Positions 3,436-4,808 of a stretch of 5,393 nt of DNA are shown here, piece by piece. How positions within the stretch are numbered: the stretch's first letter is position 1; every line of letters begins with the position of its first letter. The stretch is from a candidate division Zixibacteria bacterium RBG_16_43_9 (lineage in GTDB: Bacteria; Zixibacteria; MSB-5A5; RBG-16-43-9), in NCBI GenBank assembly GCA_001775355.1, contig MEWM01000089.1, positions 1 through 5,393 of the forward strand. The letters are read 5' to 3'. Under the pieces are notes generated by a model. That model did no database searches and was not told where the DNA came from. It saw only the letters and a list, made by a program, of their open reading frames with translations. The translations under genes and the position numbers were made by a program.

Positions 3436-4155
3436 ATGAAAATTGACCTGTTTTTTACTCCAAATGAAGTTAAAGAGGAGGAATTAAATAATCAAGCTGT
3501 TTTAGTGATAGACGTTTTAAGGGCTTCCACCACCATCGCCTATGCTTTTCACAACGGGTGCAAAGATATTATTCCCACCAGCTCGATGGACACAGCCATT
3601 GAGCTTTCCAGAAAGATAGGCAGGGATGCAGCTCTTCTATGCGGTGAAAGGGAGGGGAGAAAGATCGAGGGCTTTGACCTGGGAAACTCTCCTTTTGAGT
3701 ATGAAGCTGAGAAGATAAAAGATAAAACCATGATTTTCGCCACCACCAACGGCTCTAAAGCTATTGTTAAGGGATCAGTTGGTCTTTCTCTTGCAGTAGG
3801 TTCCTTTGTGAACTTCCAGACCGTTGCAGATTATCTTAACTCTAACTCAAATGACCTTTCGATTGTCTGCTCAGGTAAACTGGACCAGTTCTCCATAGAA
3901 GATGCTGTTTGCGGTGGGCTGTATATAGATGCTCTTGCTAAAAAGGGTGTACGCCAGTTGAATGATGCGGCTTATGCTGCGCTCAGATTATACCAGGTAT
4001 ACAAAGATGACCTTCTGGGAATGCTGAGAAAATCCTCGCATGGAAGGTATCTTATCGAATTAGGTTTTGAAAAGGATTTGCTTCTGTGCTCTGAGGTTAA
4101 TTCTCTGCAAATTCTTCCTTTGATGAATGATGGAAGACTGGTCAGGGCATTGTAG
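3436..4155 (+). CDS. comB: 2-phosphosulfolactate phosphatase family protein (ComB)
   Basis: ComB is a magnesium-dependent phosphatase that turns 2-phosphosulfolactate into sulfolactate, first characterised in methanogen coenzyme M synthesis. Homologues are common in bacteria that do not make coenzyme M, where the substrate is often unproven. The 239-residue length is typical. Visible family motifs are VLVIDVLRASTTI (22-34), LLCGEREG (67-74), GFDLGNSPFEY (79-89), ATTNGSKA (102-109), CSGKLDQFSIEDAVCGG (145-161), NDAA (176-179) and SSHGRYLIELGF (200-211). The start has GAGGG at 3421-3425, 10 nt upstream. It follows gcvT by 18 nt, so co-transcription is likely. The TAG stop lies inside the first hairpin repeat of the downstream palindromic element. 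Family membership is firm; the reaction in this organism is inferred. Confidence 0.9.
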   Translation: MKIDLFFTPNEVKEEELNNQAVLVIDVLRASTTIAYAFHNGCKDIIPTSSMDTAIELSRKIGRDAALLCGEREGRKIEGFDLGNSPFEYEAEKIKDKTMIFATTNGSKAIVKGSVGLSLAVGSFVNFQTVADYLNSNSNDLSIVCSGKLDQFSIEDAVCGGLYIDALAKKGVRQLNDAAYAALRLYQVYKDDLLGMLRKSSHGRYLIELGFEKDLLLCSEVNSLQILPLMNDGRLVRAL

Positions 4156-4156
4156 T

Positions 4157-4174
4157 TGCCCAATTTATTGGGCA
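4157..4174 (+). repeat. Left-end hairpin, just after the comB stop
   Basis: TGCCCAA (4157-4163) pairs with TTGGGCA (4168-4174) around the loop TTTA. It begins 2 nt after the comB stop codon, in the position of a terminator, but no T run follows, so intrinsic termination is doubtful. It is the left partner of the inverted copy at 4283-4298. Confidence 0.7.
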
Positions 4175-4251
4175 TGGCGTCCATCGGGTGTACTCCATAT
4201 TTGTAGCGTTGCCTCTCCTGCCCTACGGGGGCTTGCTCAGGCAACGAAGAT

Positions 4252-4273
4252 CGTCCTCACGGGAGTGAGGACG
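4252..4273 (+). repeat. 9-bp stem with GNRA-type loop inside the composite element
   Basis: CGTCCTCAC (4252-4260) and GTGAGGACG (4265-4273) are exact reverse complements around GGGA. Read as RNA on the plus strand, GGGA fits the GNRA tetraloop class, which stabilises hairpins. A T run is absent downstream. Confidence 0.7.
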
Positions 4274-4321
4274 CTACGATTGGCTCGATAAATCGAGCAA
4301 CTACATTTTTCAGGCTCAGTT

Positions 4322-4357
4322 CCCTCTCCCCTTGTGGGAGAGGGTTAGGGAGAGGGG
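4322..4357. repeat. CCCTCTCCC palindromic repeat with duplicated right arm
   Basis: CCCTCTCCC (4322-4330) can pair with GGGAGAGGG at 4336-4344 (5-nt loop) or with a second copy of the same arm at 4348-4356, so two folds exclude each other. This CCCTCTCCC...GGGAGAGGGTTAGGG pattern resembles dispersed intergenic repeats that I recall from many unrelated bacteria. It ends 31 nt before the thiD2 start and would sit in its leader if transcription comes from upstream. Confidence 0.7.
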
Positions 4358-4377
4358 TCACCTGCCGTTAGTAGCCC

Positions 4378-4383
4378 AAGGGA
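4378..4383 (+). promoter_or_regulatory. Ribosome binding site that sets the thiD2 start
   Basis: AAGGGA lies 5 nt before ATG 4389. It supports that start over the in-frame TTG at 4332, which falls inside the CCCTCTCCC palindrome and would add 19 residues unlike the family. Confidence 0.65.
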
Positions 4384-4388
4384 ATAAG

Positions 4389-4808
4389 ATGAAGAACCAG
4401 AAAAATATTTACCGGATCATCGATGCTAATCTGAATCGTGCTCGGGAAGGTCTCAGAGTAGTCGAAGAGGTTGCCAGGTTCATCTGGGAGGATGAAAAGC
4501 TTTCCAAGGGGCTGAAAAACCTGCGACATAAACTAACTAAAATCTCACAGGAGAATTTCGATCAAAAACTCCTTCTGCTATGCCGGGACAGCCAGGGAGA
4601 TTTAGGTGCTAAGGGTATGGGGTTTTATGAAGGTAAAAGGAAAGACGTAAAAACGATTGTTCAGGCGAATCTGAGAAGATCAGAAGAAGCTTTGAGGGTT
4701 TTGGAAGAGTTCGGGAAAATCATAAAAAAAGGCTCGGCAGAGCAATTTAAGAATTTGAGGTTTAAATTATATACCATGGAAAAGGAGATTTTCGTTTCGT
4801 TAGAATAA
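4389..4808 (+). CDS. thiD2: ThiD2-type hydroxymethylpyrimidine phosphate kinase (stand-alone)
   Basis: ThiD2 phosphorylates HMP monophosphate to HMP diphosphate in thiamin synthesis. It replaces the second step of ThiD but does not act on free HMP. It exists alone or fused to the N-terminus of ThiE, and its usual size is about 130 residues; this one has 139. Signature stretches are RIIDANLNRAREGLRVVEEV (9-28), LKNLRHKL (42-49), RDSQGDLG (66-73), VQANLRRSEEALRVLEEFGK (91-110) and FKNLRFKLYTMEKE (120-133). The two ANL...LRV..EE...KNLR.KL halves resemble each other. There is no ThiE domain after it; the TAA stop closes it at the length expected of the stand-alone form. No TPP riboswitch is visible upstream. 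Many databases label this domain 'thiamine-phosphate pyrophosphorylase' because of the fusions, which would be misleading here. Confidence 0.9.
   Translation: MKNQKNIYRIIDANLNRAREGLRVVEEVARFIWEDEKLSKGLKNLRHKLTKISQENFDQKLLLLCRDSQGDLGAKGMGFYEGKRKDVKTIVQANLRRSEEALRVLEEFGKIIKKGSAEQFKNLRFKLYTMEKEIFVSLE

Follow-up and report, generated by a model that had tools for sequence, protein, structure and literature searches.

Nested pairs of GTAG-tagged REP hairpins between comB and thiD2 in a Zixibacteria genome, with a candidate RAYT for each layer

The comB-thiD2 intergenic region

The DNA analysed here (the window, 5,393 nucleotides of contig MEWM01000089.1) belongs to candidate division Zixibacteria bacterium RBG_16_43_9, an assembly of 1.95 Mb in 160 contigs that is 74% complete and is called G000 below. 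Comparisons involve three congeners, G001, G002 (a sister species) and G003, and more distant genomes, including G005 and G010 from a sister family of the same order. In the window, a palindromic element separates a comB-type gene from a ThiD2-family gene:

3436-4155, plus strand: comB-type gene, 2-phosphosulfolactate phosphatase family (PF04029)
4152-4173, plus strand: A1, left outer REP unit, GTAG + TT + hairpin, stem of the CCCAA/TTGGG subtype
4174-4202, no strand: left linker from A1 to the inner pair, 29 nt, identical in G002
4203-4246, plus strand: B1, left inner REP unit, GTAGCGTTGCCTCTCCTG...AGGCAACG
4221-4238, no strand: extra piece of 18 nt in the B1 loop, a third layer, shared with G001 and lacking at this place in G002
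4252-4277, minus strand: B2, right inner REP unit, GTAGCGTCCTCACTCCCGTGAGGACG on the minus strand, 19 genome matches
4283-4304, minus strand: A2, right outer REP unit, GTAGTTGCTCGATTTATCGAGC on the minus strand, stem of the CTCGA/TCGAG subtype
4319-4362, plus strand: E, adjacent hairpin repeat, CCCTCTCCCC...GGGAGAGGG, with its loop at about 4330/4331, the site of a 46-nt insert (F) in G002
4389-4808, plus strand: ThiD2-family gene (PF17792)

The ATG at 4389 was picked as the ThiD2-family start by reading, the mechanical open reading frame beginning at 4332. The nearest named relative found for the ComB protein is 93% identical and comes from a Candidatus Zixiibacteriota MAG. The comB stop codon is the TAG of the outer REP's GTAG (4152-4155); the same holds in G002, and in G001 the stop lies at a degenerate unit. 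The E repeat follows directly after the element and has no GTAG tag. Neither this repeat at 4319-4362 nor the 18-nt piece at 4221-4238 was in the initial annotation of this DNA.

Elsewhere in the window, at 2117-2155, a perfect 15-bp inverted repeat with a 9-nt loop is preceded by a small reading frame (1866-2072) and followed by AT-rich DNA. It is possibly a terminator or another repeat.

Reading the sequence bears out what had been described of the outer arms (4151-4173 and 4283-4305): they are 83% complementary over 23 nt (19/23), and the four differences make up two stem pairs, C-G/T-A and A-T/G-C, both of which still pair, with no difference in the loop or the TGTAGTTGC flank. The inner layer is likewise as first reported, with TGTAGCG at the start of the block 4202-4278 and CGCTACG at its end.

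Two families of GTAG-tagged hairpins

The initial annotation took the ends for members of a repeat family, and further copies do occur both in the source genome and in its relatives. The outer end unit (family A) has 112 matches in G000 with at most 3 mismatches, and its reversed pattern has none. With at most 2 mismatches, A is found in 11 of 39 genomes searched, namely all 11 of the order and none of the 28 others of the class, the matches within the order falling as low as one (in G006). On these sequence matches, A looks like a lineage-specific repeat family. The right unit of the inner pair, B2, has 19 matches in G000 and again none for the reversed pattern. The element is therefore not a chance arrangement.

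We read 109 A units, selected for at most one mismatch in GTAGT. Units and pairs were taken from stretches around most of the matches listed, leaving out for instance C27:277, C80:10633 and C104:204, and so make up a part of the A population of G000. Each unit has the anatomy GTAG-TT-hairpin, and two main subtypes are seen among the 109, with stems CCCAA/TTGGG and CTCGA/TCGAG. Among units read that lie at most 260 bp apart, 36 neighbours are head to head, 11 in tandem and 7 tail to tail. The head-to-head pairs combine CCAA with TCGA in 30 cases and include an intermediate stem in the other 6; equal stem triplets occur in none of the 36, against a mean of 13.2 and a minimum of 3 in 20,000 shuffles. 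All the outer A pairs read are thus heterodimers of different stems. Their spacers measure 6-9 nt in 25 pairs, 11-25 nt in four and 54-130 nt in seven. Trimers of the form A1-A3-A2 and longer clusters are also present.

This pairing changes how the covarying positions of the window should be seen. They had been presented as two covarying pairs within one locus, pointing to selection on the folded form or to two members of a diverging repeat family. The covariation across copies is real on three of five measures, the hairpin is kept and the arms are indeed two members of a diverging family; they do not record two events within the locus, since what they display is the standing difference between the two subtypes that form 30 of the 36 head-to-head pairs.

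Family B forms a head-to-head pair of its own, in which GTAGCGTTGCC...GGCAACG faces GTAGCGTCCTCAC...GTGAGGACG. Its GTAG is intact in 17 of the 19 B2 matches listed, the other two reading GTTG and ATAA. The B pair also stands alone elsewhere in G000, for example on contigs C36, C53, C75 and C154; the C17 copy has extra sequence in its left hairpin loop too, and B pairs with E-like sequence inside lie on C3 and at C75:9480-9673. Two further repeats recur in G000: D, with 45 matches, and E, with 25 matches against 9 for its reversed pattern, which makes a noisy control. The 46-nt hairpin F interrupts the loop of E at C82 and at the comB-thiD2 locus of G002.

Both A and B carry the unpaired GTAG tag at one end of the palindrome that characterizes GTAG-type REPs. 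As in REPINs, the inverted A pair is over-represented, and the window copy folds as one hairpin. The element thus consists of GTAG-tagged REPs paired head to head (REPIN/BIME units) and is of a known kind.

Candidate transposases

Which enzyme carries these layers? In G000 we found 10 matches to Y1_Tnp (PF01797), nine of them over the cut-off, several with GTAG hairpins of other families alongside. Five PF01797 genes of this genome (L031, L032, L033, L034 and L037) lie between GTAG hairpins of other, mostly different families, one of those at L037 being 4 mismatches from A2 and belonging to another series. Several REP/RAYT systems thus seem to coexist in G000.

The search for A and B hairpins covered 43 PF01797 loci, taken from G000-G005 and G007-G010. 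The score threshold of a first scan of their flanks for GTAG hairpins could miss A units, and the scan was repeated with the A and B patterns at all 43 loci. Two loci have both kinds of B hairpin beside the gene, L188 (G001) and L186 (G002), and two have A hairpins on both sides, L212 (G005) and L211 (G010); at L189 a single B2 lies nearby. The arrangement known as a REPtron, a Y1/RAYT gene flanked by the same hairpins, is accordingly seen for B in G001 and G002 and for A in G005 and G010. The two B-type genes encode proteins that are 82% identical, the two A-type genes proteins that are 71% identical, and both types match TnpA-REP (PDB 4er8) by sequence, with E values of 1.2e-7 and 2.4e-7. 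Against NF047646 (NCBIfam REP_Tyr_transpos, cut-off 80 bits), the B-type proteins score 85.6 (L186) and 92.5 (L188); A-type L212, at 68.8 bits, is below this cut-off, and both A-type proteins, L212 and L211, are above that of PF01797. At L212, the stop codon of the RAYT gene is the TAG of an A hairpin.

The transposase-dependent MITE, the REP-type element and the structured RNA had all been named as possible carriers. Given the GTAG-tagged units, their head-to-head pairs and the RAYT genes flanked by A or B hairpins, it is the REP-type element that matches; judging from these gene neighbourhoods, the two layers very probably have two carriers, each layer its own RAYT (REP-associated tyrosine transposase).

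In G000 itself, we found neither gene. None of the PF01797 loci of G000-G003 (10, 5, 5 and 5) has A on both sides, and the best relative of the A-type RAYT in G000 (C124) is 37-45% identical and has other hairpins of its own, one of them 4 mismatches from A2. The best relative of the B-type RAYT in G000, L032, is 38% identical. At the site syntenic to the B-type RAYT genes of G001 and G002 (L337, 4270-4500), G000 lacks the gene and has instead about 170 nt with an E-like repeat. G000 thus combines B copies with a site that naturally lacks the RAYT. With neither RAYT found, no mobiliser is known in this 74% complete assembly, and both layers look like copies without a known mobiliser in a genome of which about a quarter is missing.

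Other repeat families inside A pairs

Position relative to genes was judged at the window and at six other loci, by long reading frames. Of the seven A pairs with long spacers, six hold another repeat family. The window pair holds B; D, a GTAGTGCG/GTAGCGCG pair, fills those at C64 and C127; and those at C75, C66 and C82 hold the CCCTCTCC repeat (E), C66 being partly masked and called E by its visible ends. The seventh, at C40, holds a degenerate A-like unit. With A and B both multicopy and six fillings from other families in seven long-spacer pairs, the modular, nested repeat family that had been suggested for this locus holds up.

Nesting is the exception among copies of the inner families: A pairs enclose 2 of the 45 D matches and 1 of the 19 B2 matches. 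Six nested cases compare with 0.07-0.15 expected from 89 B, D and E matches under a rough Poisson null, an estimate made post hoc that assumes uniform landing in intergenic DNA and an intergenic share of 10-20%, and that includes the E pattern with its noisy control and counts C66 as E though it is outside the 25 E matches. If the three E cases were one event, the nested cases would number four, with a chance of about 2e-5 or less under the same null.

Comparison between species

Composition at the comB-thiD2 locus differs between congeners. G002 has the same A1-B-A2 arrangement, aligned in its flanks on both sides, minus the 18 nt in B1 and plus the 46 nt of F in the E loop. In G001, the B pair is accompanied by only a degenerate A-like left unit and there is no A2. 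Orthologous regions had been proposed as places to look for empty sites, and the variation among them is real, but an A pair without B was found in neither of the two congeners compared (G001 and G002), so that the order of arrival at this locus, B after A, is one that we infer.

The six other long-spacer loci were compared with G001, G002 and G003. At C75, the A1 end is kept and the interior is E in G000, an A unit in G002 and a D pair in G001; in G003, an A1-like unit and then a D pair lie in the same intergenic region, without A2. The A1 alignment is unbroken in G002, resumes after a 55-nt gap in G001 and is a short separate match in G003, and beyond A2 the match of the G001 and G002 flanks to G000 stops after about 10 nt. 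At C127, it is the A2 end and its flank that align between G000 and G001, with D inside in the former and an A unit in the latter; no A element was recognised there in G003, and G002 gave no match. The C64 intergenic region contains A1-D-A2 in G000 and A1-A3-A2 in G001; G003 has A1-D there, and G002 has no A element. In G001 and G003 the elements occupy the same intergenic region, but the flanks adjoining them have diverged.

The E-filled frame at C66 is kept in all three congeners. In G001 this locus (L274) has two tandem A-framed E copies, a long one with F and a short one. Neither G002 nor G003 has an A element at the place orthologous to C82. C40 does not differ between G000 and G002. C82, C64 in G002, C127 in G003 and G002, and C40 are neutral for the explanation. 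The contents of A pairs thus differ between species, and one A end stays in place at C75 and C127.

How could one pair come to lie inside another?

The window shows a head-to-head A pair enclosing a head-to-head B pair, each family likely spread by its own RAYT, and we consider it probable that the inner pair was inserted at the single-stranded apex of the outer one. In such a scheme, A and B would each have been dispersed by a single-strand HUH/Y1 transposase; the apex of the outer palindrome would become exposed as a cruciform, or as single strand during replication; this exposed apex may be a preferred landing site for other REP pairs; and B would have reached the window locus after A. Two details bear on the cutting step. 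Both borders of the F insert of G002 can be placed at a CT, which would fit TnpA-REP-like cutting and is no proof of it. Where B or D fills an A pair, the linker next to A1 measures 15-31 nt, against the usual spacer of 6-9 nt, so that a simple cut in an 8-nt apex would need an extra step.

A wider version of this proposal is possible, and we put it forward tentatively: the apex of head-to-head REPs would be a docking site where miniature hairpins, some with their own transposase, keep landing and leaving, with smaller ones in their loops, giving stable frames with exchangeable contents in up to three layers.

Could the layers simply have been stacked, as in BIME mosaics, with B first and A added on either side, or with duplication and reshuffling through replication slippage, and no insertion at an apex? 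The G001 locus, where B has only a degenerate A-like neighbour, would also fit B first, and the A1-A3-A2 trimers and longer clusters are of the kind that stacking would leave. Against this, independent flanking would not predict a head-to-head pair of unlike stems around all seven long spacers (of these two traits only the unlike stems are a free test, the set having been defined as head-to-head), nor does it sit easily with the A end retained at C75 and C127 while the interior differs. We regard stacking as rather unlikely.

Much the same modest probability goes to an exchange of interiors as cassettes, in which the 22-bp A hairpins would let A-framed copies recombine or switch templates, with no transposase involved. 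Such exchange would explain the same frame having different contents in sister species, and the E-filled C66 and C82 share their junctions closely, as if a whole composite had been copied. The D linkers, however, vary from copy to copy, which speaks against one D composite having been copied; B and D also have matches outside A frames, which would need another route; and 22 bp is short for RecA-dependent exchange. Insertion at the apex is the reading that we prefer to both.

The fold, and a possible host RNA

The 155-nt element folds better than 200 of 200 dinucleotide shuffles (z of -5.3 as RNA and -5.8 as DNA). Across 42 distinct A units, 94.6% of stem cells are paired, against 20-34.5% in slid controls, and the covariation score is 0.409 against 0.240 +- 0.018 in shuffles, a value reached by none of 500. 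Covariation, which had been proposed as a check on the element, is borne out by three of five measures: all 500 shuffles and the slid controls fall short of the observed percentage paired, doubly changed cells and covariation score. The remaining measures are no higher than in shuffles: 4 stem pairs have double changes (2.9 in shuffles; 123 of 500), and there are 8 further pair types (9.2 in shuffles; 500 of 500). Taken together, these alignments suggest that the A stem is really kept by compensatory changes. They show a hairpin form maintained in the family and give no evidence of a host RNA function, since recognition by a RAYT alone would suffice as explanation.

Could the region nevertheless act as a host regulatory RNA, a folded comB 3' region selected for mRNA stability or termination control? 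Its strong predicted fold and the stem covariation across A copies would suit such a role, as would its place directly after comB and before thiD2 and the two terminator-like matches, one per strand, in 4050-4450, where 0.5 are expected. Yet palindromes recognised by a transposase would covary as well, the element is not intact across G000, G001 and G002, the A copies are scattered over many unrelated places of the genome, and the whole window has no Rfam match at gathering thresholds. A host RNA is very unlikely on these grounds, and the dedicated structured RNA that had been among the candidates finds no backing in them. The element had no match in a phage collection either.

Target-site duplications

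Terminal inverted repeats in many copies would also suit a MITE moved by a DDE transposase, the remaining candidate, but this is hardly credible, as the end hairpins are GTAG-tagged and lie on both sides of RAYT genes, and the 36 A pairs have no target-site duplication of at least 4 nt clearly above shuffles. At k=4 there are 5 of 36 against 2.7, a figure reached by 58 of 500 shuffles; k=5-7 are not unusual relative to shuffles, and k=8 and 9 give none. The flanks are slightly above shuffles at k=2 (28 against 23.0; 14 of 500), an excess that the shared AT-rich flank consensus of A pairs can explain. The lack of clear duplications fits a Y1 enzyme.

Relation to known REP systems

Several traits of the element are already in print. 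Di Nocera et al. (2013, PMC3733652), in their account of GTAG REPs, describe head-to-head dimers, heterodimers in many families, REP-flanked RAYT genes and the REP TAG serving as stop codon of a gene, and also report REPs inside other palindromes, including in A. variabilis and T. roseum. Our units resemble theirs in having GTAG at one end, a short stem and loop, heterodimers, the TAG stop codon and a RAYT flanked by REPs. Set beside the cases in that account, the outer palindrome is here a REP dimer with its own RAYT in the same order, and its interior varies between sister species. With the REPINs and RAYTs described by Bertels and Rainey (2011, PMC3116915) and Nunvar et al. (2010, PMC2817692), our families share inverted REP pairs that form one hairpin, a probable extragenic spread and a cognate RAYT flanked by the same hairpins; they depart from the REPINs presented there by their usual spacer of 6-9 nt, the unlike stems in 36 of 36 pairs read and the nesting of two families.

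REP palindromes are reported as insertion hot spots for mobile DNA such as IS1397, IS621 and ISPpu9 (Tobes and Pareja 2006, PMC1525189). The likeness lies in the palindrome as a hot spot; the elements treated in that report are autonomous IS of the IS3, IS110, IS4, IS256 and IS5 families, whereas here other REP pairs and miniature hairpin repeats are involved. E. coli TnpA-REP is described as acting on single-stranded REP hairpins and cutting at CT near the structure (PMC8266576).

In the open-licence literature searched, we found no nesting of one REP-pair family within another in which each family has an identified cognate RAYT and the contents vary between sister species. A narrow open-licence search with one spelling, combining 'Zixibacteria' with 'repetitive extragenic palindromic', returned no paper.

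Nested REP families with identifiable RAYTs provide natural pairs of hairpin loops with and without an insert, and make the targeting of loops testable. They also account for strongly folding intergenic sequences that annotation could mistake for structured RNAs, and Zixibacteria, a candidate phylum, may be added to the phyla with REP/RAYT systems.
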